The position numbers and the translations under genes were made by a program. Source: Solobacterium sp. (GTDB lineage Bacteria; Bacillota_I; Bacilli_A; Erysipelotrichales; Erysipelotrichaceae). From it: a stretch of DNA of 46,743 nt. The stretch is taken from assembly GCA_017469355.1 (NCBI GenBank), contig JAFUGM010000005.1, forward strand, positions 1-46,743, given 5' to 3'. Below are positions 3,109 to 29,828 of this stretch, piece after piece (the stretch's first letter is position 1; each line of letters opens with the position of its first letter). Under the pieces are notes generated by a model. The model made no database searches, was not told the DNA's origin, and saw nothing but the letters and a program-made list of their open reading frames with translations.

Positions 3109-3114
3109 CTTTAT

Positions 3115-3190: not shown

Positions 3191-3196
3191 GAAAAC

Positions 3197-3600: not shown

Positions 3601-3609
3601 GTATTTCAA

Positions 3610-3766: not shown

Positions 3767-3774
3767 GATTTTTA

Positions 3775-3802: not shown

Positions 3803-3829
3803 AATTCTTGGTTTCGTAATTTCGAAAGT

Positions 3830-3852: not shown

Positions 3853-3861
3853 GGAGGGCTT

Positions 3862-4401: not shown

Positions 4402-4420
4402 GAAAAGGGGGGAATGTGAA

Positions 4421-5989
4421 ATGGCTAAAAAATTGATTCAGGTACAGAATGTCGTCAAGACATTCGACAAACAGGTCGTTCTGAAGGGAATCTCACTCGA
4501 CATCATGGAAAACGAGTTCGTGACACTTCTTGGACCTTCGGGCTGTGGAAAGACCACACTGCTTCGCATTATTGCCGGGTTTCTTGAGCCTTCCGAAGGA
4601 AAGGTCATCATGGATGGAGAAGACATCGCAAATACGCCTGCCTATAAGCGGGACGTTAATACCGTATTCCAGCACTATGCGCTGTTTCCGCACCTGGATG
4701 TTTATGACAATATCGCTTTTGGACTGAATATCAAGAAGATGCCTAAGGACATCATCGACCAGAAAGTCATGCGTATGATCTCTCTTGTTGGACTGGAGGG
4801 ATTTGAACACCGTGATGTGAGTCTGATGTCCGGTGGTCAGCAGCAGCGGGTTGCGATCGCTAGAGCGTTAGTCAATGAGCCACGTGTTCTTCTGCTGGAT
4901 GAATCACTTTCCGCACTGGATAAGAACCTGCGGAAGGAAATGCAGCTGGAACTCAAGGAAATTCAGCGGGAAGTTGGAATCACCTTCATCTTCGTTACCC
5001 ATGATCAGGAAGAAGCTCTGACCATGTCCGATAAGATCGTTGTCATGAAGGATGGCGAGATTGAACAGATCGGTACGCCTGTGCAGATCTATAACGAGCC
5101 GATCAATGAATACTGCGCCCGGTTTATCGGAGACTCCAATATTATTGATGGAACGATGAAGCGTGACCGCCTGGTATCCTTCGATGACGCGGATTATGAA
5201 TGCGTGGACTATGGCTTTGAAGAAAACGAAGCGGTCGATATCATGATCCGTCCAGAGGATATCGATATCGTGGAGCGCAACCGCGGTCTGATCAATGGTG
5301 AAGTAAAATCCGTTCTCTTCAAGGGCGTTCACTACGAAGTGGTCGCAGAGACCAGCTCCGGTACCTCCAAGACAGTAACTATGCATGTGCAGAAGGACCG
5401 TGATGTGGTGAATGAAAGCGCAAAGGAAAAGATCAGTGCGACTTCCTTCGCGATGGATATCGAAGACGTTCCGAATCTGAGTGATGGTGAAGTTATTGCC
5501 CGTGCGCATGCCCAGGCATGGAACTTCGATGATGAAGATGTATCAATTTCCAAGGTCACCTATGACCTGAAAGAAGAGCCAGGGGTATACCCCTGTGTCT
5601 TCCGTACGGAAAACGGTACGGAAGTTACCATCGATATTCATGTCGTAACACCGAAGGCAGTAGAGGATGTCTCCAACGAAGAGAGCATTCAGGCATTTGA
5701 CTTCTATACCACTGTGACGGATATTCAGGAGTCGGTTGCGTTAGATACCGACCTGATCCGTTGGGCCGATGCGTATGCCTGGAGCACGGAAGACCAGTCC
5801 CGGGTAGAAATCTGGGATGTGAAATATGACTTCGATGACGAGACCATTACCGAAGGTGATTATGCGGTTACCTTCTCGACCCAGGGCCGTGAACTCAAGA
5901 TTGAGACCACGGATCGGATTGAAGAGGGGCAGCGGATCGGACTTCGCTGGAACCCGGATGACATTCATGTCATGCGGAAGATGGGGTAA
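4421..5989 (+). CDS. potA: Polyamine ABC transporter ATP-binding protein, with insert in TOBE
   Basis: 522 aa from the ATG at 4421, which follows AAAAGGGGGG; family members are usually 350-380 aa. Walker A GPSGCGKT at 38-45, signature SGGQQQ at 137, Walker B LLLDE with Asp160/Glu161, and H-loop His194 are all intact, so it should be an active ATPase. The TOBE region starts normally near 280-335 and its final strand [14 protein letters not shown] closes the protein, but about 160 residues (337-496) are inserted between. The insert holds two similar units, each with a motif like AxAxAW..(D/E)D followed by a YD strand. It powers uptake by PotB/PotC. The insert is the odd feature and may be regulatory. 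Confidence 0.93.
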
Positions 5990-5994
5990 GTGCC

Positions 5995-6783
5995 ATGAAA
6001 TCTTTTTCCAAGATGGTATATCCCTATGTGGTATGGGCCATCCTCATGATCATCCTGCCGATGCTGATGATTGTGCTGTATGCCTTTACCGTTCAGGGAA
6101 ACTCGGTACTGACCTTTCAGTTCACTCTGGAGAACTTCGCCCGTTTCTTCTCGGATGAAGTTCTGCCAGCGGTATTATGGCGCTCCTTGAAGATGGCCTT
6201 TGTGACAACGATCATCTGTATTCTCATTGGCTATCCAACCGCCTATGTCATGGCGAAAAACTCTCCCAACAAGCAGGCACTTATGGTGTTATTAATCACA
6301 CTTCCGATGTGGATCAACATGCTGGTGCGTACGTATGCCTGGAGAGGAATTCTCTCGCATATTCATATGAGTGGGGAAATCAAGGTTTATATCGGTATGG
6401 TATACAACTTTCTCCCATTCATGATCCTGCAGATCTATACCGCACTCTCCAAGATCGATCCGGCGTTGATTACCGCTGCCCATGACCTTGGGGCGGATAA
6501 CGTACAGACCTTCCGTCGGGTTATTCTGCCGCTGTCCTTATCCGGTATCGTTTCGGGTATTACTCTGGTATTTCTGCCAGCGGTATCTTCGTTCTTTATT
6601 CCCAAGTTCCTTGGGGGAGGGCGCTATGTCCTGATCGGTAACCTGATCGAGGATTACTTCATCTCTACCGGAGACTGGAATTTCGGCTCCGCAATCAGTC
6701 TGATCATGGCGATCATCATTCTGATCTCCATGTATATCACACGTAAGCTTGACCGCCAGCCGGCGGACCAGGAGGACAACTGA
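5995..6783 (+). CDS. potB: Spermidine/putrescine ABC transporter permease PotB
   Basis: 262 aa, six predicted membrane helices. The cytoplasmic coupling loop AAHDLGADNVQTFRRVILPLSLSG matches the EAA motif of binding-protein-dependent permeases of the spermidine/putrescine group. It starts 5 bases after the potA stop, and its TGA overlaps the potC ATG by one base, which indicates translational coupling. It forms the membrane channel with PotC. Confidence 0.95.
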   Translation: MKSFSKMVYPYVVWAILMIILPMLMIVLYAFTVQGNSVLTFQFTLENFARFFSDEVLPAVLWRSLKMAFVTTIICILIGYPTAYVMAKNSPNKQALMVLLITLPMWINMLVRTYAWRGILSHIHMSGEIKVYIGMVYNFLPFMILQIYTALSKIDPALITAAHDLGADNVQTFRRVILPLSLSGIVSGITLVFLPAVSSFFIPKFLGGGRYVLIGNLIEDYFISTGDWNFGSAISLIMAIIILISMYITRKLDRQPADQEDN

Positions 6784-8759: not shown

Positions 8760-9959
8760 TCAAAGATCACTGTCTGCTAACCATTGTCCGATATCAATGA
8801 TACGTATCCCTTCATATTGATACTCAGGGTGATGAGTTCTTGTGATCAGCAGTTTCGGATAGGCATTCTGGATCTTCAGCAGCGGAGCGACCTCTCGTTC
8901 AAAGGTCGTTTCTGAAAAAATGTCATCGGAAACCTGAATATAGAGCTCCTCGTTCCGTTTCTTCGCAACAAAATCAATCTCTTTCTGATATAGTTTTCCG
9001 ACGTATAATTCGTATCCCCGACGGAGCAATTCAATTGCGACCATATTTTCATATGCATGTCCATAATCCATGTTTACCGTACCCAGTTTTGCGTAACGGA
9101 ACACCGGATCACATACATAGTATTTGTCATTTGTTTCAAGATATCGTTTTCCTTTCAGGTCATAACGGCGCACTTTATAGAACAGAAAGGAATTACAGAT
9201 ATAGCTCATGTAATTGCCAATGGTCTTATTGTTGGTTGGAATGTTTTTCTTGATCAGGTTATCCGATATATTTTTTGACGAAGACAGGTTGGCAATATTA
9301 TCAAACATGAAATCAACGAGCTGATCGAACATGGCTTTATTGCGGATGTGGTATTTCTGCTGAATATCGCGGATGATCAATGTTTCATAAATTTCGTTGA
9401 TATAGTTGTATTTGTCTTCCTCATTCCTGTAAAGATAGGCTCCTGCCATACCACCCTCACGGAAATACTGATCAAATGCGGTTTCTGGATCATTAAGGTC
9501 ATAGTAGCGCATATATTCTCTCAAAGAGAACGGATAAACTTCAATTTCATATTGCCGCCCGACAAACAGGGTCGCAAGATCACTGCTGGATAAAAACGCA
9601 TTCGACCCAGTCAGGTAGATATCATAATTACCTGTCTCGTATAATCCATTGATTGCATCTTCAAAATTGTCACAACGCTGGATTTCGTCGATTAAAAGAA
9701 AATTCTGTTTGTCGTCAACCGTATGTTCTGCAACATATTCTTCCAGTTTCTCTGCTTCTCTGTAATTCCGGAATTCCTTCAGGTTGTAATTGATTTTGAT
9801 GATGGACGAGTCTTCGTGATTCTCCCTCAGATACTGCTCAAATGCATCAATCAGCTTTGATTTACCGCATCTTCGTACTCCGGTAATTATCTTAATATCT
9901 GGTGTACCGATTACATCGATTAGCTTCTGGAGGTAATAGTTTCGACTGATCAGCTTCAT
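8760..9959 (-). CDS. AAA ATPase with DUF4143 domain
   Basis: 399 aa from the ATG at 9959; this start follows AGAGGA at a good distance, while an upstream in-frame ATG overlaps the predicted -10 box and is unlikely. The AAA part has Walker A GVRRCGKSKL and Walker B LLIDEIQRC, then sensor-type LTGSNAFLSS. The C-terminal DUF4143 part ends with a restriction-endonuclease-like strand EIDFVAKKRNEELYIQV. These proteins are widespread, variably present and of uncertain role, often discussed with toxin-antitoxin or defence loci. It runs against the pot operon and shares only the short spacer with it. A second member lies at 28479. Confidence 0.85.
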   Translation of the reverse strand: MKLISRNYYLQKLIDVIGTPDIKIITGVRRCGKSKLIDAFEQYLRENHEDSSIIKINYNLKEFRNYREAEKLEEYVAEHTVDDKQNFLLIDEIQRCDNFEDAINGLYETGNYDIYLTGSNAFLSSSDLATLFVGRQYEIEVYPFSLREYMRYYDLNDPETAFDQYFREGGMAGAYLYRNEEDKYNYINEIYETLIIRDIQQKYHIRNKAMFDQLVDFMFDNIANLSSSKNISDNLIKKNIPTNNKTIGNYMSYICNSFLFYKVRRYDLKGKRYLETNDKYYVCDPVFRYAKLGTVNMDYGHAYENMVAIELLRRGYELYVGKLYQKEIDFVAKKRNEELYIQVSDDIFSETTFEREVAPLLKIQNAYPKLLITRTHHPEYQYEGIRIIDIGQWLADSDL

Positions 9960-9983
9960 TTTTGTATCGTCCTCTTTTTTCAA

Positions 9984-9989
9984 ATTATA
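9984..9989 (-). promoter_or_regulatory. -10 box of the DUF4143 gene
   Basis: TATAAT on the minus strand, 24 bases before the chosen ATG. The region where a -35 would lie is occupied by one arm of the long inverted repeat at 10006-10048 and has no clear TTGACA-like hexamer. Confidence 0.45.
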
Positions 9990-10005
9990 CATTGTGACTT
10001 GCGAT

Positions 10006-10650: not shown

Positions 10651-10751
10651 TGTGGAGAATACCGTCATTCGATGAATGAATTAAGAAACATTTTGAGCAG
10701 TACATAGAAACTATGAATGGTATCTTAAACGCAGGTTCATGTACTTTAAGA

Positions 10752-10757
10752 TATAAT
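10752..10757 (+). promoter_or_regulatory. -10 box of GH9 gene
   Basis: TATAAT lies 9 bases before the ATG at 10767. No good -35 is visible at 16-18 bases. No Shine-Dalgarno sequence is present between it and the ATG. Confidence 0.45.
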
Positions 10758-10766
10758 TCATTCGTT

Positions 10767-13064
10767 ATGAAACAGCGTCTTCGTAAACCAAACAGCCGTT
10801 ATGGTTGGAATGTGGCAGTAATGATTGTTGTGTTACTGCTCTTTGATATTGTCGTGCTTGCGGTAGGTCTGCATCGCACCCGGGGTGTGGCAGAGCCTGT
10901 CGAACCGGAACCCAGTAATGAACCGATCGTAATCACAGAACCCGAACCGATCGTTCCGGAGGAGCCGGTTGTAATTGAGATTCCGGAAGTGAATCCGATT
11001 CTTTCACTGAACTACCATCGGGAGCCATATGAAGCAGAAGATCCTTCTGAAGGATTTGTAAGTGAGTGGTATGTCACCTATGAAGCGCCTGCCTATGCGG
11101 AGGCACAGAATACGTATGAAACCATTCAGGCATCCATTCTGACTCCAGGAAGCTCAGCGAATGCAGTACAGATTTCCCGATGGGGAATTCCTCTGGAATC
11201 CGGGAAGACCTATACGGTGTTCTTTAATCTTTCTTCCTCAGTCAATGGCACAGTTGGCTTAAAAGCCTATAACGGAGATACTGGTGTGGAGTACAGTTCC
11301 TCCCAGTTTCCTGCTACGCAAGAGCCTTCCTACTATGAATACAGCTTCAGCGTGCCTGCAGGGAAAGGGGGGTATAATGGCGTACTTGCGTTCCAGGCCG
11401 GAACTCTTGGGGTAGCAGAAGGCAGTACGGTTACGATTCATGCGCTGCGCTTAGTAGGGCAGGATGATAATGCGGCGGTACGTACCAACCAGGTTGGATA
11501 TTATGCAGAGCAACAGAAGCGCTGCACGTTTATTTACAGCTGCGGGGACTTATTTGATGTGGTAAACGCAGAAACTGGTGCGATTGCCTATTCTGGGGCG
11601 ATCGTTCACCGCATGGAAGATAACGCAGTAAATGAAACAGATTATTATGGTGACTTCACCAATCTGAGAGTCCCCGGTACGTATTTCATCCGCTCACAGA
11701 ATGGACTTGTGTCCCATACTTTTACGATTGAAGCTGACCCATATGAAGACCTTCGAAATAAGGCGCTTTTGATGTTAAGTTACCAACGGTGCGGAAGTGA
11801 ATTAGGGGAATGGGCTGGGCAGTTAAGCCATGCGGAGTGCCATACGTCGCAAGCAACGCTCTTTCTTACCGATGTCGTAAAAGATGTTCATGGCGGCTGG
11901 CATGATGCGGGAGATTTTGGCCGGTATGTTTCTACCGGAGCTAAGGCAGTCAATGACCTGTTATTAGCGTATCTTTCTGCCCCGGAACTGTTTTCGGATG
12001 CGATTGAAGGACCGGACAGCGGGAATGGAATTCCCGATATCCTGGATGAAGCACGGTATGAACTGGAATGGATGATGCGGATGCAGGAAGAAGACGGGGG
12101 ACTCTTCTGTAAAGTGACCTCTCAGAGCTTTCCTTCTGATACGACATCCCCGGAAGCTGATAATTTGCCGTTGTATTTACTGGCATCGGATACAGTATCT
12201 ACTGCCGATGCGGCGGGGTCCTTTGCGATTGCCTATCTTGCGTTTCAGGAAGTAGATCCTGGGTTTGCGGAAACCTGTTTAGCATGCGCAGAGAAAGCGG
12301 AACGCTATCTTCATTCCAAGAAGAACTATGTTTTGACGGTTAACCCAATGGATTTCTCCACTGGACAATATCTGGATGACGGGGATCGGGATGGGCGGTT
12401 TACCGCATATCTTGCCTTATATGCCGCAACGGGAGAAACCAGATATCTTGATGAGGCGAAGGGAATCTATGAAGATGAGCCGTCCTGCGTGAATTTTGTC
12501 TCCTGGAATAATAACGGCATGTATGGTGTGTATCTCTTTTTGACGAATGCTGAGGCGAAGGATACAGACCCGGAGTTTTATGAAGCAATGGAAGATGCCT
12601 TGAAGGCATCTGCGGATCATCTGGTTTCTGCATCTGAGGGGTCTGGATATGAAAATGCCAATGCGATCTATGAGTGGGGCAGTAATGCCTATACCGCAAA
12701 TGATGGCATTGTGTTATCTATGGCATATCATGTCTTTGGAAAGCAGATATACCAGCAGACCGCAGTAGAGCAGATTAACTATCTGCTTGGTAGAAACAGC
12801 CTGGATCTCTGCTTTGTTTCGGGCTTTGGGAACCGCTCACCCAAACATCAGCATAATCGGCTTGCATCAGCTAAGGGGACCAGTATTCCAGGGGCTTTGT
12901 CCGGTGGCCCGGATGCGTCTAGAGAAGATGATGTGACTGAGGTGATGGACTGGAATACGCCTCCGGCAAGAATGTATGCGGATGAGTATGGAAGCTATTC
13001 CACCAATGAAATTGCGATCTACTATAACAGTGCCTTGTTATATCTGTTAGCTTCTGTATCATAA
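10767..13064 (+). CDS. Membrane-anchored glycoside hydrolase family 9 (endoglucanase-like)
   Basis: 765 aa from MKQRLRKPNSRY; an in-frame ATG 54 bases upstream lies before the -10 box and is unlikely. A single helix (about 17-38) anchors the N-terminus, then comes a Pro/Glu linker (EPVEPEPSNEP), a CBM4/9-like beta domain (about 80-235), a CelD_N Ig-like domain opening with RTNQVGYY, and the GH9 alpha-barrel. Catalytic signatures are present: GGWHDAGDFG with Asp380 and Asp383, HQHNR at 694-698, and NEIAIYYNSA with Glu748 as acid. It should cleave beta-glucan chains outside the cell while tethered to it. It lacks dockerin or SLH modules. Transcribed alone, just before the tRNA pair. Confidence 0.9.
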   Translation: MKQRLRKPNSRYGWNVAVMIVVLLLFDIVVLAVGLHRTRGVAEPVEPEPSNEPIVITEPEPIVPEEPVVIEIPEVNPILSLNYHREPYEAEDPSEGFVSEWYVTYEAPAYAEAQNTYETIQASILTPGSSANAVQISRWGIPLESGKTYTVFFNLSSSVNGTVGLKAYNGDTGVEYSSSQFPATQEPSYYEYSFSVPAGKGGYNGVLAFQAGTLGVAEGSTVTIHALRLVGQDDNAAVRTNQVGYYAEQQKRCTFIYSCGDLFDVVNAETGAIAYSGAIVHRMEDNAVNETDYYGDFTNLRVPGTYFIRSQNGLVSHTFTIEADPYEDLRNKALLMLSYQRCGSELGEWAGQLSHAECHTSQATLFLTDVVKDVHGGWHDAGDFGRYVSTGAKAVNDLLLAYLSAPELFSDAIEGPDSGNGIPDILDEARYELEWMMRMQEEDGGLFCKVTSQSFPSDTTSPEADNLPLYLLASDTVSTADAAGSFAIAYLAFQEVDPGFAETCLACAEKAERYLHSKKNYVLTVNPMDFSTGQYLDDGDRDGRFTAYLALYAATGETRYLDEAKGIYEDEPSCVNFVSWNNNGMYGVYLFLTNAEAKDTDPEFYEAMEDALKASADHLVSASEGSGYENANAIYEWGSNAYTANDGIVLSMAYHVFGKQIYQQTAVEQINYLLGRNSLDLCFVSGFGNRSPKHQHNRLASAKGTSIPGALSGGPDASREDDVTEVMDWNTPPARMYADEYGSYSTNEIAIYYNSALLYLLASVS

Positions 13065-13171: not shown

Positions 13172-13245
13172 GGTTCCTTAGCCAAGTGGTAAGGCAACAG
13201 ACTGCAACTCTGTGATCGCCGGTTCAAGTCCGGCAGGAACCTCCA
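13172..13245 (+). tRNA. tRNA-Cys (anticodon GCA)
   Basis: 74 bases including encoded CCA. Acceptor GGTTCCT/AGGAACC, D arm with AAGTGGTAAGGC, anticodon stem ACAGA/TCTGT with loop CTGCAAC (anticodon GCA), and T arm CCGG-TTCAAGT-CCGG. All stems pair. Confidence 0.97.
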
Positions 13246-13257: not shown

Positions 13258-13344
13258 GGGGACATGGCGGAATCGGCAGACGCAACGGACTTAAAATCCG
13301 TTGGTGGCAACACCGTGCGGGTTCAAGTCCCGCTGTCCCCACCA
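13258..13344 (+). tRNA. tRNA-Leu (anticodon TAA)
   Basis: 87 bases including CCA. Acceptor GGGGACA/TGTCCCC, anticodon stem ACGGA/TCCGT with loop CTTAAAA (anticodon TAA), and a long variable arm TGGTGGCAACACCG as in class II tRNAs. It lies 12 bases after tRNA-Cys. The accessory region starts just beyond it. Confidence 0.97.
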
Positions 13345-13388: not shown

Positions 13389-13621
13389 CGTATGTGCAGG
13401 TTTTATCCACATACGAGTAAAAGAGATTATGCATAAGGAATCCTGTGGGTGAAAGATCAAATGCATAGATGTATGACTTGGGCACTGCTGTTTTTCTCCA
13501 TTCCGAACCAAATAGCAACTTGAAAATATGATATTTGTAAAAAATATGCAAATAATTGATTTATGGATTTGAAATTCCAGCTGAATGGTAGTATCTTGTG
13601 TGTACGGTAAGGAGAACCATT

Positions 13622-14875
13622 ATGTTGTTACAGTTCAATGTGAAGAACTTCCTGTCGATCAAAGATGAAGTAACACTGACTGCGTTTGCTAATGCGAGTA
13701 AAGAACACGAAGATAATCTGATTGTTTCAGGAAGAGAACGAATCCTGCCAACTCTGGCACTCTATGGAGCTAATGCGGCGGGAAAGTCAAATATTTTCAA
13801 AGCACTCACTGCTGCTATTCTGCTGGTTAGAAGATCAAACACGCTTCAGATCAATATGTCTACGGGGGTTGAACCATTTCTATTCGATGAAAAGACACAG
13901 AATGAGAAGACAAAAATGGATTTCCTCTTTGTTCATAATGGAAAGAAATATGAATACGGATTTCTCGCAGATACCAACTATATTTATGAAGAGTATCTTT
14001 ATGAATATAAGTCTTCCCGACCGACAATGATATTTGAACGCTCCGAGGTGACGAATTACAAGTTCACTTCATCATACAGGCATCTTTCTGAATATCAGTC
14101 CAAGAACACTTCCAATAAACTCTTTCTTTGCACAGCCACCTCATGGAATTGCGAAGAAACACGCGATGCGTATTTATGGTTCGCTGAAGGCATTGATACC
14201 TATGATCAACTGGCAATTCAGAACAATCAGTTTCTGGAGTACCTGGATCGCAATAAAAACCGCCCTGAAGCAAAAGAATTTCTCCTTTCCATGCTTAAGC
14301 ATGCGGAGATTAATATTCAGGATTATGAGTTTGAATCAAATATAATTGATAACCCTGCGATTCCTTTTCCTCCAGGAATTCAGATCGATCGGGTAATGTT
14401 AGCGAATGTGAAACAGTATCGTCTGGACACGATTCATCAAATTGAGCAGAGTGATGGCAGTATTAAGAATTATAAGCTGTCATTTGATCATGAATCGGAC
14501 GGAACAATGTTGCTGTTTGCATACGGTCCGATCATTATGGAAGCTTTAGAAAAAGGAAGAACGATTATTATTGATGAACTGGATAATAGTCTGCATCCAA
14601 ATCTTTCGAAATACCTGATCGAGTTATTCAACGATAAAGAGGTGAATCGAAACGGAGCGCAGCTAATATTCAATTCCCATGATATCAGCCTTCTGGATTT
14701 ATCTTTATTCCGCAGAGATCAGATATATTTTGTTGAAAAAGATAATCGTACCGGAGTAACAGATCTTTATTCTCTGGCAGATTTTTCTCCCAGAAAATCT
14801 GAGAACATTCAAAAGGGTTATTTGCAGGGACGATATGGGGCGATTCCTTTCCCTGAAGGGGGAATTGAATGGTAA
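13622..14875 (+). CDS. AAA ATPase, RloA/AbiLi-like (AAA_15/21)
   Basis: 417 aa from MLLQFNVKNFLSIKD, which follows AAGGAGA; the family usually begins with exactly this LLxFxVxNFxSIKD strand. Walker A GANAAGKS is at 49-56, Walker B IIIDELDNSLHP with Asp318/Glu319, and a switch histidine in NSHDISLLD. The layout (SMC/ABC-type head with an intervening helical segment) is that of the DNA-sensing ATPases of OLD, PARIS and AbiL/RloAB-type defence systems. The next gene overlaps by 7 bases and encodes RloB, which fixes the assignment. Probable role: sensor ATPase that controls the RloB effector after phage infection. Confidence 0.85.
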   Translation: MLLQFNVKNFLSIKDEVTLTAFANASKEHEDNLIVSGRERILPTLALYGANAAGKSNIFKALTAAILLVRRSNTLQINMSTGVEPFLFDEKTQNEKTKMDFLFVHNGKKYEYGFLADTNYIYEEYLYEYKSSRPTMIFERSEVTNYKFTSSYRHLSEYQSKNTSNKLFLCTATSWNCEETRDAYLWFAEGIDTYDQLAIQNNQFLEYLDRNKNRPEAKEFLLSMLKHAEINIQDYEFESNIIDNPAIPFPPGIQIDRVMLANVKQYRLDTIHQIEQSDGSIKNYKLSFDHESDGTMLLFAYGPIIMEALEKGRTIIIDELDNSLHPNLSKYLIELFNDKEVNRNGAQLIFNSHDISLLDLSLFRRDQIYFVEKDNRTGVTDLYSLADFSPRKSENIQKGYLQGRYGAIPFPEGGIEW

Positions 14876-15510
14876 AGAGAATTAGAAAGGTGACTAAGAA
14901 CCACCCAACCAGAGAGAGAAAGAAAATCATAGTTGTCGGAACAGAAGGAAATAATAAAACGGAAACGCTGTATCTCCGTAATATTGAAAGTACACAATCA
15001 AGATTTCATTTCATATTTGCTTCTGGAAATGATACTGATCCAGTGAAAATTGTAAGGAATACGATTAAGAAAGCGAAAGAAGAAGAGATATCGGTACGAC
15101 GTGGGGATATGGCGATAAGTATTTTTGATCTGGATCTGGACAGTTCTAAGAGAGAACAGTTCACTCGGGCAAAAAACATTAGCGCTTCAAATAATGTGAT
15201 GATCATATCATCGAATCCCTGCTTTGAAGTGTGGTACTTAGAGCACTTTGGGTATACAAGCAGACAATTCAACTCCAATGCTGAATTAATTACGGAATTA
15301 AAGAGGCGTGACTCAAAATACGAAAAGAACTTCTGCAATTTTGAAGTGCTTTATCCTAATACTGACCAAGCAATCAAGAATTGTAAAAAGCTTGATGACT
15401 ATCATAGAAAGAATTCATCAGAAGAGTTGTTCGAGTTTAATCATCCCAGGACGGATATGTACAAAATTGTTGAATTGCTGATCGATGAAAGTGATAGGAA
15501 GAAGGCATAA
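14869..15510 (+). CDS. RloB family protein (TOPRIM-like effector)
   Basis: 213 aa. VVGTEGNNKTETLYL (Glu26, Glu32) is the conserved glutamate block, SIFDLDLD (Asp87-Asp91) the acidic pair, and SNPCFEVWYLEHF the signature of RloB proteins. The glutamate plus DxD pattern is that of TOPRIM-type metal-dependent nucleases. It overlaps the ATPase gene by 7 bases (ATG inside the end of the upstream frame), so both are made together. RloA/RloB pairs were first noted in restriction loci and the pair resembles AbiL; I infer that ATPase plus nuclease give abortive defence. Confidence 0.85.
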   Translation: MVKRIRKVTKNHPTRERKKIIVVGTEGNNKTETLYLRNIESTQSRFHFIFASGNDTDPVKIVRNTIKKAKEEEISVRRGDMAISIFDLDLDSSKREQFTRAKNISASNNVMIISSNPCFEVWYLEHFGYTSRQFNSNAELITELKRRDSKYEKNFCNFEVLYPNTDQAIKNCKKLDDYHRKNSSEELFEFNHPRTDMYKIVELLIDESDRKKA

Positions 15511-19873: not shown

Positions 19874-21082
19874 ATGCCACTTGGATGGATTGATTTTTCA
19901 AAAACTGAACGGAATAAAGTGTTGAGCGTGCTGGACATGTTATCAGATTCTGGCACGCTCGATGAGCTTGGCATAGCTCCGATCCGGGATGGTTTTGCTA
20001 ACCTGTTTTTCCCGGGCACTTCAACGATCCAGACACGAGCGAAGTATTTCATGATCGTTCCCTATGTGCTGAAAGACCTGGAATACAGCAGTGAAACAAA
20101 TCCAAACCGGATGCTTAGAACGCTTGATGAAATTGAACGTAGATGTGGTGAGATATTGATTGCTGGTGAAGATAAAGATGGCATTATTGGTAGCAGATCT
20201 CTGGCGCAGGGTAAATGGGTTAAGCGGACACCTGCTGATATTTATTGGGCTGGACTGCGAAATTACGGTATTTTTACAGGCGGAACACTATCCCTGTCGG
20301 AATATGTACGTGCTATTTGTGCTCTTAAGAATCAGAAAGCAACTGTCGCAAAGCTCGGCAATCGAAATGACAATGCAGATGCGGACAAAGGCGATGATAA
20401 GGATGCCGGAGAACTGTTCAGAAAGCAGTTCTGGAAGATCCCAACATACCAAGAAAAATGGATGGAGGATATCAGTATTAAGCTTTCCCTAGAGGAAGCC
20501 TCCTTCTTAAAAGGGCAGATAATCGCTTCCTATCCAGACTCCATGTTGGCATACATTCTGAAGAATGATGTTACTGATATATTTGCAGCGAAGACATTTC
20601 AGGATCTGGAAACTCTGATTTTATCCTTTCCGGAACAGATACGGGAAGATTATGCGTTGGCATTTGATTTCTCCAAATTTCTGTTTGTGCTGCGTGTCGT
20701 ATATAACATGATTGTCTCTGACAATCAGAACGAGGACGCAAACGACCTATGGGAAAAGCTACTACCGGATATTCCGGCCCTGGCAGATGTTGATTTGGAG
20801 CGGATCTTTTCAAGGCTCAATGTCTACGGAAATGTGTTCCTTCGCAATTTTCTCAAAGGATCTCAGACACTGATGAAGGAGTCAGATCTGGAAGGTTTGA
20901 AAATTGAGATAAAGAGGAGAGAACGGGAATTGAAACAGTCCAGGGCGAAGACGTTGCACCCTGGCGAGTTTGATCTGGATGGTTGGTTTGGCGGTGGTGA
21001 GCTGGATTATCGTTTCGATAATGCGAAGGTAATCATCAAAGATATTTTTGAAAGCGAGGGGATCTATGTTAAATCCAAATAA
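19874..21082 (+). CDS. DUF6361 family protein, first gene of PLD-helicase cassette
   Basis: 402 aa. It begins MPLGWIDFSKTERNKVLSVLDML and continues DELGIAPIRDGFANLFFPG with STIQTRAKYFMIVPY, which I recognise as the DUF6361 N-terminal block. No catalytic motif is evident; a charged linker of Asn/Asp/Lys near 165-180 divides two helical halves. Its 3' end overlaps the PLD gene by 17 bases, so the three genes are one unit. By analogy with helicase-nuclease defence cassettes it may be the specificity or regulatory subunit. Only a weak purine-rich site precedes the ATG. Confidence 0.75.
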   Translation: MPLGWIDFSKTERNKVLSVLDMLSDSGTLDELGIAPIRDGFANLFFPGTSTIQTRAKYFMIVPYVLKDLEYSSETNPNRMLRTLDEIERRCGEILIAGEDKDGIIGSRSLAQGKWVKRTPADIYWAGLRNYGIFTGGTLSLSEYVRAICALKNQKATVAKLGNRNDNADADKGDDKDAGELFRKQFWKIPTYQEKWMEDISIKLSLEEASFLKGQIIASYPDSMLAYILKNDVTDIFAAKTFQDLETLILSFPEQIREDYALAFDFSKFLFVLRVVYNMIVSDNQNEDANDLWEKLLPDIPALADVDLERIFSRLNVYGNVFLRNFLKGSQTLMKESDLEGLKIEIKRRERELKQSRAKTLHPGEFDLDGWFGGGELDYRFDNAKVIIKDIFESEGIYVKSK

Positions 21083-22898
21083 TGACAGACTGGATTATGG
21101 TCAGATCCTTACTCCACCTACCGGGTACTATCTCGACTTTGCTGTTGGAACGACTTATTCCCTGGATCTGGATGCGCTGGTGGGAGCCAGCCTTGCGCTT
21201 GGGCTTTCTGAGGAGACAGACAGCGAACTCATGAACAATCCGGTATGCCTGTTGGAAGCGCTGCGCAGTACTGGAGATAAGGTGGCGTTGTTCTGTGAGG
21301 GTGGTCAGATTCATATGCCGAACAGAGTGACACCGTTATATATTCTGCTGGAAAAGATGGTATTTTCTGTGAAGACTACCAAGAAGCACAGGATTACAGC
21401 ATATCCTTCCTTCCATCCTAAGTTCTGGCTGATTCGATACAAGAATTATGAGGGCAGCCTTAAATATCGTGTCATCATACTCAGCCGTAATTTGACCTTC
21501 GACCGTAGCTGGGATATCACTTACGTTATGGACGGTGAAGTTGTTAAAACAAGTTCCGATAAGAACGAACCAATCTGTGATTTTCTTGAATATCTAGTCA
21601 GTCAGACACCTTCCGATGAAAACGGAAAAGAGAAGGCAAAGGGTATCTGCACCTTGATTCGCGAGTTACCAAGTGTAGCCTTTATACCTGCAGAGAAGGA
21701 GTTTTACGATTTTGAATTCATTCCGAATGGGGTGAGGAAACAGGATGGTGGATTCTATCAGTTTGATGACACACAACTTTTTCAGGATACATTCCATGAG
21801 ATTATGATCATTTCGCCATTTCTTTCTGGTGGGATCATAAGAGGTTTCAATAACCGGAATACAAATTCTCTGATCAAAGATGCGCGGTATATGCTGATTA
21901 CACGGGAGATGTCTCTTGGGAAACTGAAGCCGGAAGACATCAGCAACTTCAAGATATATACCATGCGTGACGTCGTGATTGATGGAGAGACGGCGATATC
22001 CGATGAGTCACAGGAGATTCAGAAGCAGGACATCCATGCAAAGGTATACATGGTTCGGAAGTATTCCAGTTCTGATTTATATTTGGGATCACTAAATGCA
22101 TCTCACAATGCCGTTCATGGAAATGTGGAATTCATGATCTGTCTGAGATCAAAGAATCGATACATGAACATGGATAAATTGACGGCTGCTCTTTTTGGAA
22201 GTGAAAAAGACGGGTCCGACAATCCCTTCCAAGAAGTAACGCTGCAAAATGCCATCATTGATGTGGATGATGAAAAAACGAAGATACTGGATGTGATCGT
22301 GAAAGAAATTAATCGTAGTAATCCATCTGCCTGCATCCGGCCGGAAGAGGAAGACTTCTATTCCGTGAATGTCCATTTTAATACCTGCGACACGAAGGAT
22401 TTTCAGGTATCTGTCAGACCCTTGCTTTCCAAGAGGGAAGAAGAGTTTAGAGAAGATATCGTATTTACCGGATTGTCTGTGACGCAACTTTCGGAATTCT
22501 ATGTAATATCCGTGTCAGACGGAGAACGGACTGTAGAGCGCGTTTTGATCATTCCGACAGAAGGTCTACCGGAAGATCGCGAAAAGGCAGTGGTTTCCAG
22601 TGTTGTCAGCAACCGTGACTGCTTCTATCGCTATATTGCTTTTCTACTTGGCGATGACTCGATTCTTTCTATGTTGGAAGCTAATACAGCAGCTGGCGAG
22701 TCCAGCAGTACAGCGAATAGGCATGATTACCATGTTCCGGCTCTGTACGAGAAAATGCTTCAGACAGCAGCAGTTGCTCCGGAAAAGTTTAAAAGTATTG
22801 AATACCTGATGAAGACTATATCAGAAGACGGTATCATTCCGGTTGATTTTATAAAGCTGTATGAGACGTTTAAGAAGGCGGTGAGATTCAATGGCTAG
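21066..22898 (+). CDS. Phospholipase D-like nuclease, second gene of cassette
   Basis: 610 aa from MLNPNNDRLDYG, which follows GCGAGGGG. Two HKD half-sites are visible: HPKFWLIRY at 117 with SRNLT about 35 residues later, and HAKVYMV at 324 with GSLNASHNA at 341-349, the standard HxK(x)nGSxN order of the PLD superfamily. Both halves should form one active site. PLD proteins next to SNF2-like helicases act as nucleases rather than lipases in defence systems such as DISARM (DrmC). The remaining C-terminal 250 residues are of unknown fold. It overlaps both neighbours. Confidence 0.85.
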   Translation: MLNPNNDRLDYGQILTPPTGYYLDFAVGTTYSLDLDALVGASLALGLSEETDSELMNNPVCLLEALRSTGDKVALFCEGGQIHMPNRVTPLYILLEKMVFSVKTTKKHRITAYPSFHPKFWLIRYKNYEGSLKYRVIILSRNLTFDRSWDITYVMDGEVVKTSSDKNEPICDFLEYLVSQTPSDENGKEKAKGICTLIRELPSVAFIPAEKEFYDFEFIPNGVRKQDGGFYQFDDTQLFQDTFHEIMIISPFLSGGIIRGFNNRNTNSLIKDARYMLITREMSLGKLKPEDISNFKIYTMRDVVIDGETAISDESQEIQKQDIHAKVYMVRKYSSSDLYLGSLNASHNAVHGNVEFMICLRSKNRYMNMDKLTAALFGSEKDGSDNPFQEVTLQNAIIDVDDEKTKILDVIVKEINRSNPSACIRPEEEDFYSVNVHFNTCDTKDFQVSVRPLLSKREEEFREDIVFTGLSVTQLSEFYVISVSDGERTVERVLIIPTEGLPEDREKAVVSSVVSNRDCFYRYIAFLLGDDSILSMLEANTAAGESSSTANRHDYHVPALYEKMLQTAAVAPEKFKSIEYLMKTISEDGIIPVDFIKLYETFKKAVRFNG

Positions 22899-25800
22899 GG
22901 TCATGGACCATCTCGATGCAATTGAGCAGAAAATCATGAGCGGTCTCAAGGATTTTCAGGAGGCTACAGTTGAGCGTATTGATTATCTGTATCGTCATAA
23001 TCAGTACCGTATTCTTGTTTCAGATGAAGTAGGTTTGGGGAAGACTTTGATCGCCAGAGGAACAGTGGCTAAGCTCGCGAAACTGCGCCGTGAAGAAGGC
23101 GACAATCTCTTTAAAGTCGTCTATATCTGCTCGAATGCAGCAATTGCGGATCAGAATCTCAGTAAACTTCGCGTAACACATGAAACAAAGACTGAGAGTG
23201 CTTCCTCATCCAGACTATCAATGCAGCACTTGAACATTTTTAAACAGGAAAATGATGCGGAGCTTCTGGATCGATATATTCAATTGATCCCTCTGACACC
23301 GGACACATCTTTCCGCATGACGGCAGGAACCGGAATTGTGAGGGAGCGTGCGCTGATGTTTGTGCATCTGAAGCGAATGCCCGAATTGAATAACTATCAA
23401 AAAGAATTAGAAGTTGCCATGATGGATATTGCAAGATCTACATGGGAATCATGGTGCAAGGACTGGTATGAGAGAGAAGCTGTTAATTGCAATGATAAAT
23501 CTGGTGGACGGTATTTTGATTATATGCAGTACAGGCTACACAGCGAACTCTCCATGACCTGGCATGATGATGTTACCTATCTGGATGGCCTCGTAGAGCT
23601 TTGCGATGCAATCCGACGGAATGGAGGAAAGCGTGTAAGCGAGAATGCGATTATCGGTCAGCTTCGTGTTATCTTTGCCAAGATCAGTCTGGAGAAGCTG
23701 GAGCCAGATCTTGTTATCATGGATGAATTTCAGCGTTTCAAATACCTGCTGAATTCCGATCCTGAATCCGAGACCGGCATGCTGGCAAACAAGTTCTTCC
23801 ATGCCAGAGATGTACGTATGCTTCTCTTATCTGCGACGCCTTATAAGATGTATTCCACTTCCGAAGAGATTGATGAGACCAGGTTGGATGAACACTATAC
23901 GGAATTTCTCTCCGTGATGAATTTCCTGAATGAAGATTCGGAAGCGGGAAGCAGTTTTTTGACAGTATGGCGGGATTACTCCATCCGTTTGAAAGAACTG
24001 ACACTTGGTGGTACGACGATCCTGTCTGCTAAGAATGCTGCTGAAGATGCCATGTATCAGACAGTATGCAGGACAGAACGGATCTCTGCAGCAGAGAATG
24101 CTGATATCATCGATGACAGTGATGTTCACGAGCCACTGGAAGTCCTGGAGCAGGATATCCGTTCCTATGTTCAGGCACAGGAATTGTTGGATCAGATCGG
24201 AGCAAATTATCATGTCCCGGTGGACTATATCAAATCGACACCATATCTGATGTCATTTATGCGTGATTATCAGCTGAAACGGAATGTAGAAAAATACTTT
24301 AAGGAACATCCGCAGGAACTGAGGAAAATCAATAAAGACACCTTCTGGATCAACCGGAATACGATCGATCATTACGAGCGCGTTCCCAATAACAATGCAA
24401 GGCTGGAACGAGTCATGAACAGCGTGCTGCAGAGAGGAGTGGATAAGCTTCTTTGGATGCCGCCGTCCAAGCCATACTATGAGATGGAAGGTGCTTATAA
24501 GAACACAGAGTTTTCTACCAAAACACTAATCTTTTCTACGTGGGAAATGGTTCCGAGAATGCTGGCAAGCCTTCTATCCTATGAAGTTGAACGCAAAACA
24601 GTAGGAAAATTGGCCAGAGACTATCAGGATCGAGACGTTCACTATTTCTACAGTGGTGAAAAGAGATATCCTTCTGCACGAATGAACTTTTCTGTAAGAA
24701 ACGGTGTGCCGAGTGCGATGACTCTGTTCTGCTTGATCTATCCCTCGTGGTTCCTCGCTTCATGTTATGATCCTGTCTCTTGTATGAATGAACGGATGGG
24801 GATCCGTGAAATTCAAAGGCAAGCAAGAGAGAAAATTAGTGAGGAGTTGAAAAAACTTCCTTCGCCCGAACACGGCAATCAGGACCGCCGTTGGTATTAC
24901 ATTGTTCCACTCATTATGGATGGGAATGAATATGCCTCTTCCTGGATAGAGAGTGGATTAAAGAGTGCGGAAGAACAACCTGACTATGATGACGAAGAAG
25001 GAAAATCCAAGAGGCAGAAAGGCTTCATAGCCCATATGGAAGCGCTGAAAGAGCTCTTCGATGATACACATAAAGAACAGTATGACAATCTGGGCAGAAG
25101 ACCGGATGATCTTTTGGATGTCCTGACTGATATGGCAATCGCCTCTCCGGCAATATGTATTTATCGTACATATTTGAATTACACAGATGGGGAGAAGGGA
25201 CTTCCTGTGTATCTGCCAAGTCAGCTGGCAAGAGTGTTCATTAATAGAATGAATACAGTTGAATCGACTGCTGTTGTGGAGCTGGTTTGTGGCAGAAAAT
25301 CGGATGACGCGCATTGGCAGAACCTGCTGACATATTGCCGTCAGGGTAATCTGCAGGCTGTATTTGATGAATACGCGCATCTCATCTCAAATGGTATTGA
25401 CCATGATGAGGATCTGATCCATCAACTTCACACGCAGATGAAGGGTGCCATGGATATCCGCACAACCCAGTATAACGTGGATACCTATAAGAGCTTTCAG
25501 AAGAGATCTTTTGGGCAAAAGGACAGGCCGACCAATATCAGGACGCACTTTGCTGTAGCATTTACGAAGGGCGAGGGGAAAGACACAGACGGAGATCGTA
25601 AGAAGACGATTCGGGATGCCTTCAATTCCCCGTTTCGACCTTTTGTTCTCGCAACAACATCGATTGGACAGGAAGGATTGGATTTCCATAATTACTGTCG
25701 AAAAATCGTACATTGGAATTTGCCTTCCAATCCAATCGATTTGGAACAGAGAGAAGGGCGGATCAATCGCTTTGAGTGCCTTGCGATCCGCCAGAATGTG

Positions 25801-26163
25801 GCAAAGCGATATGGCAATATAGTTTTCAGCACAGATGTCTGGAAAGAGATGTTTGATGAAGCGACGATCGTTGAGAAGGCCGGAGGCTCTTCGGATTTGA
25901 TTCCTTTCTGGGGGCTCCGGGAGACAGAAGACATGGTAAAAATTGAGCGTATTGTACCGATGTATCCGTTCAGCCGAGATGGTCTGACGTATGAACGACT
26001 TATTAAGATTCTGTCTCTGTACAGATTGACGCTTGGGCAGGCACGACAAGAAGAGCTCCTGGAATATCTGTTCAAAAACTGCGATGATCCAGACCAATTG
26101 AAGGAACTATTTATCAATCTCAGTCCATTTTATAAAGAACAGAAGAGAAAGAAGGGTGGTTGA
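22891..26163 (+). CDS. SNF2-like superfamily 2 helicase, third gene of cassette
   Basis: 1090 aa. Motif I SDEVGLGKT with Lys51, motif II VIMDEFQRF with Asp278/Glu279, motif III LLLSATPYK at 311-319, motif V TTSIGQEGLDFHNY and motif VI QREGRINR at 953-960 are in order. The DEFQ box and long insert between the two RecA lobes resemble the helicase group found with PLD nucleases rather than typical chromatin remodellers. It should move on DNA using ATP. The start overlaps the PLD stop by 8 bases. No DUF1998 or methylase gene is nearby, so this is not DISARM. Confidence 0.88.
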   Translation: MARVMDHLDAIEQKIMSGLKDFQEATVERIDYLYRHNQYRILVSDEVGLGKTLIARGTVAKLAKLRREEGDNLFKVVYICSNAAIADQNLSKLRVTHETKTESASSSRLSMQHLNIFKQENDAELLDRYIQLIPLTPDTSFRMTAGTGIVRERALMFVHLKRMPELNNYQKELEVAMMDIARSTWESWCKDWYEREAVNCNDKSGGRYFDYMQYRLHSELSMTWHDDVTYLDGLVELCDAIRRNGGKRVSENAIIGQLRVIFAKISLEKLEPDLVIMDEFQRFKYLLNSDPESETGMLANKFFHARDVRMLLLSATPYKMYSTSEEIDETRLDEHYTEFLSVMNFLNEDSEAGSSFLTVWRDYSIRLKELTLGGTTILSAKNAAEDAMYQTVCRTERISAAENADIIDDSDVHEPLEVLEQDIRSYVQAQELLDQIGANYHVPVDYIKSTPYLMSFMRDYQLKRNVEKYFKEHPQELRKINKDTFWINRNTIDHYERVPNNNARLERVMNSVLQRGVDKLLWMPPSKPYYEMEGAYKNTEFSTKTLIFSTWEMVPRMLASLLSYEVERKTVGKLARDYQDRDVHYFYSGEKRYPSARMNFSVRNGVPSAMTLFCLIYPSWFLASCYDPVSCMNERMGIREIQRQAREKISEELKKLPSPEHGNQDRRWYYIVPLIMDGNEYASSWIESGLKSAEEQPDYDDEEGKSKRQKGFIAHMEALKELFDDTHKEQYDNLGRRPDDLLDVLTDMAIASPAICIYRTYLNYTDGEKGLPVYLPSQLARVFINRMNTVESTAVVELVCGRKSDDAHWQNLLTYCRQGNLQAVFDEYAHLISNGIDHDEDLIHQLHTQMKGAMDIRTTQYNVDTYKSFQKRSFGQKDRPTNIRTHFAVAFTKGEGKDTDGDRKKTIRDAFNSPFRPFVLATTSIGQEGLDFHNYCRKIVHWNLPSNPIDLEQREGRINRFECLAIRQNVAKRYGNIVFSTDVWKEMFDEATIVEKAGGSSDLIPFWGLRETEDMVKIERIVPMYPFSRDGLTYERLIKILSLYRLTLGQARQEELLEYLFKNCDDPDQLKELFINLSPFYKEQKRKKGG

Positions 26164-26165: not shown

Positions 26166-26348
26166 ATGACCACAGTACCAATGAGTGGCCTTGTGATATT
26201 CTTCGGATACTGGGTATTAAACTTCAATATGAATTTTTAGGGACATGATGGAAAGTTAAGACCGCTTCTTGAAGATATCATTCATCAGGTTTCGAACACG
26301 TTTAACTACAAAGCAGGAGAATGCGAGGTAAGTAAACATGCCATTTAA
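26166..26348 (+). pseudogene. Short frame with internal TAG after the helicase
   Basis: Two bases after the helicase stop, an ATG opens 24 codons (MTTVPMSGLVIFFGYWVLN) to a TAG at 26238. The same frame then continues without stop as GHDGKLRPLLEDIIHQVSN and ends at 26346, inside the macro-domain gene. The continuation looks like real protein, so this is either a decayed small gene or a remnant of a longer one. Readthrough of TAG is possible but unproven. Confidence 0.35.
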
Positions 26349-27432
26349 GATCATTCGAAATGACATAACGAAGGTTAAAGCAGATGCCATTGTTAATACT
26401 GCCAATCCAGAACCAAGATATGCCAGCGGTACGGATGCGGCGATCTATAAGGCGGCTGGGGCAGATGATCTTCTTGATGCACGGAAGAAAATCGGCAGGA
26501 TTGCGCCAGGTGAGGCAGCTGTCACTGCTGCGTTTCAGCTTCCGGCAACCTGTATCATTCATACGGTTGGGCCCGCATGGATCGACGGGAATCATGGAGA
26601 ATATGACATCCTTCGTTCCTGTTACCGTAAATCACTCTTACTGGCAGATCAGCTGGGCTGTAAAAGTATTGCCTTTCCACTTATCGCAACTGGAGTCTAT
26701 GGTTTTCCAAAAGATCAGGCACTGGAGATCGCATTATCTGTGATGCGTGAGCATCTGGAGTCTTCTGATCTGAATGTGATACTGGTTGTCTTTGAGCGTG
26801 ATTCGTATCAGATCGCATCTGGTCTTACAGAACAGATTAAAGAATATATCGATGAGAACTATGTCTTTGAACAAGCTTCAGAGGAATATGGAGAACCGAT
26901 AGAACATCTTTCCGAAACTGGACGCAGGCGAGGGCTATGGGAGCGTAATCATCTCTTTGGCTCAGCGCCCATAAGTTATGCGGCAATGGCTGAGCCTCTG
27001 ACAGAGGAAGAACTCCCTCAACTGGATGGGGAAGATAGTTTCAGCTATGCCGTAACAGAGAAGAAGGCTTCGCTTGAAGATATGGTGAAAAACCTAGGAG
27101 AAAGCTTTCAGGCAAGGCTTCTGCGTATGATTGATGAGCGGGGAATGACTGACCCTGAAGTTTATAAACGTGCAAATTTAGATCGGAAACTGTTCTCAAA
27201 GATTCGTTGTAATCAAGATTACATACCTAAGAAAAAGACGATCATCGCTCTGGCGATTGCGCTTGGATTAAACCTGGATGACACGAAAGACCTTCTGGCC
27301 AGTGCTGGACTGGTACTGACAAATAACAGTAAAGCAGATGTTATCGTCAGCTTCTGCATTGAAAACGGTATTTACGATATATATGAGGTAAATGCATTAC
27401 TGTTCAAATTCCATCAATCAACGATGGGTTGA
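26338..27432 (+). CDS. Macro-domain protein with C-terminal helix-turn-helix
   Basis: 364 aa. Residues 1-175 form a macro domain: FKIIRNDITKVKADAIVNTANP, the ADP-ribose-binding GTDAAIYKAAG, and FPLIATGVYGFPKDQAL. Such domains bind or remove ADP-ribose. After a linker, residues about 255-340 read like an XRE-type helical DNA- or protein-binding domain (DPEVYKRANLDRKLFSKI, IIALAIALGLNLDDTKDLL). GAGGTAAGTAAAC gives a ribosome binding site. It is followed after 78 bases by a vWA protein, and the two probably work together. Role is inference: ADP-ribose signalling or reversal of a modification. Confidence 0.85.
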   Translation: MPFKIIRNDITKVKADAIVNTANPEPRYASGTDAAIYKAAGADDLLDARKKIGRIAPGEAAVTAAFQLPATCIIHTVGPAWIDGNHGEYDILRSCYRKSLLLADQLGCKSIAFPLIATGVYGFPKDQALEIALSVMREHLESSDLNVILVVFERDSYQIASGLTEQIKEYIDENYVFEQASEEYGEPIEHLSETGRRRGLWERNHLFGSAPISYAAMAEPLTEEELPQLDGEDSFSYAVTEKKASLEDMVKNLGESFQARLLRMIDERGMTDPEVYKRANLDRKLFSKIRCNQDYIPKKKTIIALAIALGLNLDDTKDLLASAGLVLTNNSKADVIVSFCIENGIYDIYEVNALLFKFHQSTMG

Positions 27433-27510
27433 TCATTGTCGCTTTACAAGCGACCACTTCAGTTTGCTTAAAAGCCATACTTGAATCATCAAATAAAGGA
27501 GGCTTGCAAA

Positions 27511-28176
27511 ATGAAGAAGAACTTAACAGAATTGGTAATGATCTTAGACAGAAGTGGTTCCATGGGTGGATTAGAAACTGACACCATCGGTGGATACAAC
27601 AGTATGCTGAAAAAGCAGAGTAAAACTGAAGGTGAGGTACTGGTATCTACCGTACTGTTTGATGATTGCAGTGAGGTGCTTTATGACCGTGTTCCTTTAT
27701 CTAAGCTGCCACAGATGACAGAGAAGGAATACTATGTGCGTGGCTGCACCGCCTTACTGGATGCGGTTGGTGGTGCAATTCATCACATTGGTAACGTACA
27801 TAAGTATGCCCGTGAAGAAGACCGTCCAGAGAAGACGATCTTCGTCATCACTACAGATGGACTGGAAAATGCCAGTCGGGAGTATTCTTGCGACCGCGTG
27901 AAACAGATGGTCGAACGGCAGAAGGAGAAGTATGGCTGGGAATTCCTGTTTTTAGGGGCCAATATCGACGCGATCGAAACGGCAGGGCGCTTCGGTATTT
28001 CCGCTGATCGTGCCGCGAATTATAACAGCGACCACGAAGGTACAGCACTGAACTATGAAGTTCTGGCAGATACCGTCTGTGAAATGCGTGCATCTGCAGC
28101 ACCTATCAGTGCAGATTGGAAGAAGCGAATTGATGAGGATTATCAAAAGCGTGGTAAGAAAAGAACCAAGGCATAA
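27511..28176 (+). CDS. von Willebrand factor A domain protein
   Basis: 221 aa from MKKNLTELVMILDRSGSMGG, after AAAGGAGG; the first in-frame ATG-like start further up lacks such a site. The MIDAS metal site is complete: DRSGS at 13-17, Thr in GCTALLDAVGG and Asp in ITTDGLENAS. The domain occupies almost the whole protein. It lacks signal peptide and membrane segment, so it is cytosolic and likely a protein-interaction partner of the upstream macro-domain protein. Confidence 0.85.
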   Translation: MKKNLTELVMILDRSGSMGGLETDTIGGYNSMLKKQSKTEGEVLVSTVLFDDCSEVLYDRVPLSKLPQMTEKEYYVRGCTALLDAVGGAIHHIGNVHKYAREEDRPEKTIFVITTDGLENASREYSCDRVKQMVERQKEKYGWEFLFLGANIDAIETAGRFGISADRAANYNSDHEGTALNYEVLADTVCEMRASAAPISADWKKRIDEDYQKRGKKRTKA

Positions 28177-28394: not shown

Positions 28395-28467
28395 AAGTGG
28401 CATTTTCCTCCTATAAAATTCAAAAAAAGTGGCATTTTTCCTTCTAAAAAAGTTAAAATAGTGGCAT
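28395..28467 (+). repeat. Three GTGGCAT elements at 32-base spacing
   Basis: AAGTGGCAT at 28395, AAGTGGCAT at 28427 and TAGTGGCAT at 28459 are spaced exactly 32 bases, each of the first two followed by a T/C run and an A-rich stretch (TATAAAATTCAAAAA and CTAAAAAAGTTAAAA). The third ends 11 bases before the DUF4143 start. The spacing is near three helical turns, so a regulator could bind all three on one face. TAAAAT within the second unit could be the -10. Confidence 0.7.
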
Positions 28468-28478
28468 ACAGGTGCAAT

Positions 28479-29828
28479 ATGAAACGAAAAATCTATGATG
28501 ACTTACTGAGATGGAAATCTTCCAAAAAGAAAAAGTGTCTGTTTATTCAAGGTGCCAGGCAGGTAGGAAAAACTTATATCATTGATGAATTTGCGGCTGA
28601 AAACTATCCTGCCAATAAGATCATCAAAATGGATTTTATTATCCAAAAAGATATGAATCGTTTTTTTGAAGGGGACTTATCACCGGCTGCGGTAATGCGC
28701 AGGGTGTCCGGTGATATTCGCTTTCGCAATATTGATTTCAAAGATGATCCTGATAACCCTTACTTCATTTTTCTGGATGAATGCCAGGAATGTGAAAACG
28801 CCATTATTGCCTTGAAAGCTTTTTCCATGCAGAGCGAGTTATATCACGTGATTGCCAGCGGCTCACTTCTCGGGGTTGCCTTGAAACGGGAATTCTCCGG
28901 ATCTTATCCGGTTGGTTATGTTCAGCATCTTTCCATGTATCCCATGAATTTTGAAGAATTCCTATGGGCGTTTGGATATAACGATCGTTTCATTGAACAG
29001 TTACTTCAATCTGATTCCGTGACTGACTCTACACATGAGGTATTAGCCGATCTGTTTAGGAAATACATTGTGATTGGAGGTATGCCAGAAGCTGTCGAAA
29101 CCTTTATCGATACGCAGAACTATGATGCTGTGTATACCGTACAAAGTGATCTTAGAACTGGTTATATTCAGGATATCCGCAAGTATGGGGAATCAGAAAC
29201 GATGAAGATTAAGATTCAGAGATGTTTTGAATCAATTCCTGCGCATTTAAAGGAACAGAATAAGAGATTTATGTATAAGCGTGTTGAGAAAAACGGGAGA
29301 TCAAGAATGTTCGATCATGCGCTCGACTGGCTGTATGATGCAGGATTGGTGATTTATTGCGATAATCTCAAGACATTGAAACAGCCATTATCTTCTTATA
29401 CGGAAGAAGATAGTTTTAAACTGTTTCTTTTGGATCCAGGTGTTCTTATGAGCATGTTTCCACCGGAAAAGCGATATCACGTTTTAAGCGGAAGTGAGGA
29501 TATTGATATCGGTGGAATTTATGAAAATGCTGTTGCGTGTATTCTTGCGACTGCCAAAAAGAACAATAAACTCGCTTATATGAATATGGAACAACAGCTC
29601 GATCTCGACTTTGTAATGGAGTCGAATGACGTCATAACGATTCTGGAAGTAAAATCCGGAGATAGCCTGAAATCGTCTTCGTTAAAGAAGTTTCTGAAGA
29701 TGAATCCGGACTTTGACGGGAAAGTAATTAAGCTCTCAAACAAACTCGCCAGTGATGAAGCAGTCGTGAAAAACAAAACGTTCTATCGGTTTGCGCTGGA
29801 GCTTCAACATACAACCAGTGTGTATTGA
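28479..29828 (+). CDS. AAA ATPase with DUF4143 domain (second copy)
   Basis: 449 aa from MKRKIYDDLLRWK, preceded by AGGTG. Walker A QGARQVGKTYII, Walker B FIFLDECQECEN, sensor-like IASGSLLGVAL, the family block YPMNFEEFLWAFG, and a C-terminal nuclease-like strand LDFVMESNDVITILEVKSG (Asp, then ExK) that is more complete than in the copy at 8760. It is the last gene of the accessory region. Sequence similarity to the first copy is only by family, so it is not a recent duplication. Confidence 0.86.
   Translation: MKRKIYDDLLRWKSSKKKKCLFIQGARQVGKTYIIDEFAAENYPANKIIKMDFIIQKDMNRFFEGDLSPAAVMRRVSGDIRFRNIDFKDDPDNPYFIFLDECQECENAIIALKAFSMQSELYHVIASGSLLGVALKREFSGSYPVGYVQHLSMYPMNFEEFLWAFGYNDRFIEQLLQSDSVTDSTHEVLADLFRKYIVIGGMPEAVETFIDTQNYDAVYTVQSDLRTGYIQDIRKYGESETMKIKIQRCFESIPAHLKEQNKRFMYKRVEKNGRSRMFDHALDWLYDAGLVIYCDNLKTLKQPLSSYTEEDSFKLFLLDPGVLMSMFPPEKRYHVLSGSEDIDIGGIYENAVACILATAKKNNKLAYMNMEQQLDLDFVMESNDVITILEVKSGDSLKSSSLKKFLKMNPDFDGKVIKLSNKLASDEAVVKNKTFYRFALELQHTTSVY

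Follow-up and report, generated by a model that had tools for sequence, protein, structure and literature searches.

Azaca, a three-component anti-phage system made of ZacA, ZacB and ZacC, is credited by the papers that cite it to Millman et al. 2022, and both ZacC and Azaca appear in lists of defence helicases and PLD systems (PMC12278908; PMC10952713). In the literature searched, a mechanism for Azaca was not found, and one review gives the mechanism as unknown (PMC12926258); literature searches by the names DUF6361 or ZacA/B/C returned nothing useful.

Three other systems combine comparable components. SauUSI, an ATP-dependent restriction endonuclease (PDB 7clg), couples, like Azaca, a PLD nuclease to an SF2 ATPase, but it does so within one fused polypeptide, whereas Azaca has separate nuclease and helicase genes and, in addition, a DUF6361 protein. 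DISARM (DrmA/DrmB/DrmC/DrmD) shares with Azaca the presence of an SF2 helicase and a PLD nuclease in one operon; the Azaca trio, however, is devoid of both the DUF1998 protein and the methylase. For DISARM, DNA structure has been considered as a possible cue for self/non-self discrimination (PMC9142583). Hachiman (HamAB) likewise follows a logic of nuclease plus sensor helicase, in which the helicase HamB is the sensor and the nuclease HamA the effector (PMC12278908), but the nuclease is a different one and there is no third gene.

The cassette at 19874-26163 is most probably a complete Azaca operon

The DNA analysed here, hereafter the window, is a stretch of 46,743 nucleotides from Solobacterium sp. 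(contig JAFUGM010000005.1), whose relevant features are collected in Table 1. A sequence-only reading of the window had described, at positions 19874-26163, three genes overlapping by 17 and 8 bases, the first of which encodes a DUF6361 protein. The ORF coordinates agree exactly with this description, as zacA and zacB share 17 bases (21066-21082) and zacB and zacC share 8 bases (22891-22898). The start codon of zacB is the ATG at 21066, and an in-frame TTG is present upstream, at 21048. The assignment of the first gene also stands, given that ZacA matches Pfam PF19888 (DUF6361) with 89.9 bits (cut-off 25).

Table 1. Features of the window in and around the Azaca cassette.
Feature	Position	Strand	Evidence	Remark
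AAA_14/DUF4143 ATPase	8760-9992	-	Pfam scan only	
GH9 cellulase with CelD_N domain	10713-13064			
tRNA-Cys	13172-13245			
tRNA-Leu	13258-13344			
AAA_21 ATPase + RloB pair, AbiL-type	13598-15510	+	PADLOC AbiLi 302, AbiLii 65 bits; Pfam	outside Azaca
Schlafen-group-3-type helicase-domain protein, 624 aa	17688-19562	+	Pfam SLFN-g3_helicase 310 bits	outside Azaca
zacA, DUF6361 protein, 402 aa	19874-21082	+	ORF list, PADLOC, Pfam	
zacB, PLD-superfamily nuclease, 610 aa	21066-22898	+	PADLOC, invariant residues	two half-sites in one chain
zacC, SF2/SNF2-like helicase, 1090 aa	22891-26163	+	PADLOC, Pfam ResIII + Helicase_C	
Macro-domain protein, C-terminal HTH-like region	26338-27432			directly downstream of zacC
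VWA-type protein	27481-28176			after the Macro-domain gene
AAA_14/DUF4143 ATPase	28461-29828	+	PADLOC candidate PDC-S01, 402 bits	

Specifically, ZacA matched the PADLOC model PDLC03828 with 308 bits (residues 3-394, profile positions 5-393 of 396), ZacB matched PDLC03829 with 505 bits (residues 1-606, profile positions 1-581 of 586) and ZacC matched PDLC03830 with 1052 bits (residues 11-1080, profile positions 5-1017 of 1019). The three genes are adjacent and lie on one strand in the order A-B-C, and the residues of the PLD HxK..N motif, of Walker A and of the DEAD-like motif II are intact. Because the ZacA, ZacB and ZacC models all match nearly full length and the order is A-B-C, we conclude that, judging from sequence, the cassette is most probably (with a probability of roughly 0.93) a complete Azaca anti-phage operon, zacABC. 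The profile search that the sequence-only reading had proposed has therefore substantiated its suggestion that Azaca has this composition, and has refuted its fallback, namely that the cassette represents a new type. Azaca is already present in the defence catalogues, and finding the system here is not new. The window copy shares with the catalogued system all three components, their order, lengths and domains, and differs by sequence divergence only, with ~25-32% identity to the plasmid-borne copies of Pseudomonadota, Bacteroidota and an archaeon.

A defence type not yet described, distinct from DISARM but akin to it in having PLD and SNF2 genes, could be evoked by the weak similarity of ZacC to DrmD and DrmA over the C-terminal helicase motifs only (PADLOC, at most 47 bits). 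Nevertheless, this explanation is scarcely credible, since each of the three proteins is covered nearly end to end by its Azaca model, with scores of hundreds of bits, while the DrmD model reaches 57.5 bits on ZacC against a curated cut-off of 610. Membership in DISARM itself was rejected: no Drm model matched full length, those found matching only the C-terminal helicase motifs of ZacC; the trio lacks the DrmA/DrmB (DUF1998) core; and the window proteins that were scanned include neither a DUF1998 protein nor a DNA methyltransferase, in keeping with what had been noticed from the sequence alone. Membership in Hachiman was rejected as well, with no HamA or HamB model, and hence no matching full-length model, among the PADLOC matches listed (for ZacC, the best 25 of 26).

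Invariant residues and domains of ZacA, ZacB and ZacC

Each protein was aligned with homologues sharing 25-86% identity with the window proteins. In ZacA, the polar residues D30, E31, R38, D39, Q53, R55, E88, R118, E350, K354 and R380 were invariant across 12 homologues. The first four are among the invariant charged residues of an N-terminal part that also contains the stretch FPGT.TIQTR, while E350, K354 and R380 lie near the C-terminus. From this alignment, which spans bacteria and an archaeon, a small set of ZacA residues emerges as targets for mutation, which would help to find out what DUF6361 does.

As far as ZacB is concerned, the match to Pfam PLDc_2 was sub-threshold (22.1 bits, cut-off 27). 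In 14 proteins with 25-78% identity to the window protein, F116-H-P-K119, R124, N142 and D150 were invariant, as were, in the second half, H324-A-K326, G341-S342, N344 and E355. The two half-sites had been described as complete HKD sites on the basis of His117 and His324; both histidines are indeed invariant, but neither is followed by the aspartate of a classical HKD motif, since an arginine occupies position H+7 in both cases. A pattern of the HxK...N...E kind thus fits the ZacB half-sites better than HKD, and the missing aspartate counts against the best explanation of the cassette. When the second half-site was compared with PDB profiles, the best match was the PLD region of SauUSI (7clg, E 9e-4).

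The AlphaFold models of ZacA and ZacB, for which the alignments were shallow (7-8 close homologues), were poor, with pLDDT values of 48 and 60, respectively. A Foldseek search with the poor ZacB model gave no match at E <= 0.001; SauUSI and phosphatidylserine synthase, another PLD-superfamily protein, were found within the first seven, a result that is weakly suggestive.

ZacC matched Pfam ResIII and Helicase_C, both above cut-off. The helicase motifs recognised in the sequence-only reading were borne out, as the residues checked in motifs I, II, III, V and VI were invariant in 13 ZacC homologues: GKT 50-52 (a count that includes one sequence whose start is trimmed at that point), DEFQR 278-282, SAT 314-316, TS.GQ.G.D 923-931 and QR.GR..R 953-960.

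The trio is conserved and often lies close to restriction genes

Whether the three genes co-occur elsewhere, and whether they lie beside defence genes, were the two checks proposed together with the initial description of the cassette. With regard to the first, the trio was found in the order A-B-C and on one strand at 13 other loci, which belong to four phyla, an archaeal one among them, the groups represented being Lachnospiraceae, Oscillospiraceae, Pseudomonadota, Bacteroidota and Halobacteria. Seven of these loci come from bacterial genomes (including Lachnospiraceae, [Clostridium] aminophilum and an Oscillospiraceae MAG), five from plasmids (Halomarina, Caballeronia, Cronobacter, Haliscomenobacter and Shinella) and one from a scaffold deposited as 'Bacteriophage sp.'. 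The PADLOC ZacA, ZacB and ZacC models match nearly full length also in the distant relatives from Halomarina, an archaeon, and Haliscomenobacter, a member of the Bacteroidota. On the Caballeronia plasmid (6769-8007), zacA is split into three short annotated ORFs and zacB and zacC are open; at one locus (L004) the contig end falls within zacC. The plasmids were drawn from a collection in which 34 records match ZacB, 19 of them from Cronobacter; five of the 34 were examined for the trio. The 'Bacteriophage sp.' scaffold (L040, MT835621.1) is unannotated and carries type I RM genes together with Azaca. Despite its phage label, this scaffold may be a defence island of bacterial origin.

With regard to the second check, a restriction gene was located close to the trio at six of the nine other loci examined, a raw count from a non-random selection. 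In Haliscomenobacter, the trio is inserted between type I RM methylase/specificity (hsdM/hsdS-type) genes and hsdR, while in Shinella it is followed by a DNA methyltransferase and a restriction endonuclease. In the remaining four cases the trio comes after the restriction gene, which is an HNH endonuclease gene in Halomarina, an HsdR-type gene in L040 (directly adjacent) and in L002 (with one gene between), and Mrr-type and NgoFVII-type nucleases in L006. A clear restriction neighbour was not seen in Cronobacter, in Caballeronia or among the two neighbours scanned at L007. The flanks of L003 and L008 are outside this count, as are L004 and L005, whose contigs are too short.

Distribution and horizontal transfer

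When 60 genomes of the genus, the own genome among them, were searched with the ZacC protein, none of the 59 others had it in full length; three of them gave short helicase-motif matches. Similarly, of the 296 genomes searched in the class sample, the ZacA model matched the own genome and none of the 295 others. A search of the phylum with the ZacB model gave matches in 103 genomes; these were rejected as Azaca, since among the matches listed all but the own genome were partial PLD matches. On viral contigs, the ZacA, ZacB and ZacC queries gave no match.

Because full-length ZacC was not detected in the 59 other genomes of the genus, zacABC looks like a rare accessory gene set, made of horizontally moving defence genes. 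The relatives nearest by identity (59-86%) belong to Lachnospiraceae and other Clostridia, which suggests horizontal exchange. The known system thereby gains a well-preserved copy, whose close relatives are found in Bacillota of the rumen and gut. The possibility of a mis-binned contaminant contig was rejected: an ABC-transporter permease encoded in the flank shares 77-80% identity with genomes of the same genus, a value that drops with kinship. The contig fits its bin, and a contaminant is not obvious.

Helicases and PLD nucleases are also found in DNA repair, and a chance neighbourhood or a housekeeping repair operon, rather than a defence system, was therefore considered. The conserved trio order in 13 other loci excludes a chance grouping. 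Altogether, the patchy occurrence in genus and class, the order kept across phyla and plasmids and the restriction-gene neighbours make this explanation very improbable. Conversely, the PADLOC matches, the co-occurrence across phyla and the restriction-modification neighbours uphold the idea of a defence module put forward in the sequence-only reading.

A putative mechanism for Azaca

Since SauUSI pairs a PLD nuclease with an SF2 ATPase, we lean, by analogy, towards a cut-and-translocate mechanism, in which ZacA, ZacB and ZacC would form one ATP-driven restriction complex. Specifically, ZacC would load onto the invading DNA as an SF2 translocase and move along it, ZacB, whose two half-sites would face each other within the single chain, would cut the DNA delivered to it, and ZacA would act as a sensor/adaptor, either holding the complex together or gating it. 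With such gating, the complex might load only where DNA is foreign or abnormal, for instance at ends, overhangs or replication intermediates. Because the module has no methylase, self-protection would more likely be based on DNA structure or state than on a cognate methyl mark, and a structure-based cue like that considered for DISARM would fit a methylase-free module.

The main rival hypothesis is abortive infection, with ZacA and ZacC sensing the infection and ZacB destroying DNA indiscriminately, so that the infected cell dies. We regard it as possible but not probable. The pairing of a helicase with a nuclease is the arrangement of Hachiman (PMC12278908), in which the sensor helicase frees the nuclease, and a module without methylase does not encode direct discrimination by a sequence mark. 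On the other hand, ZacA and ZacB have no detected relation to HamA (PADLOC), and sequence does not separate host suicide from direct restriction.

A further reading, which we judge rather unlikely, is that ZacA is a sensor/adaptor with a fold new to defence systems, licensing both the nuclease and the translocase through a DNA-structure cue in the absence of a methyl mark. If this were true, the RM genes beside several copies would be partners, and not chance neighbours in an island.

Neighbours of zacABC within the window

The bacterium is of gut type, and the window Azaca copy belongs to a small defence island. Directly upstream of zacA lies the gene for the Schlafen-group-3-type protein, whose ~260 N-terminal residues have no Pfam match and which gives weak-to-moderate matches to the PADLOC PDC-S41, AbiO and Nhi models, and is thus defence-like. 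Further upstream, the AbiL-type pair directly follows the tRNA-Cys and tRNA-Leu genes; because its GC content is 38%, compared to 46% in the left flank, this region is possibly an inserted island. A macro domain, present in the product of the gene downstream of zacC, also occurs in the 1924-aa product of a neighbour gene (872-6643) at the L007 Azaca locus. Finally, the GH9 cellulase encoded in the window would suit a host that degrades fibre in the gut or rumen.
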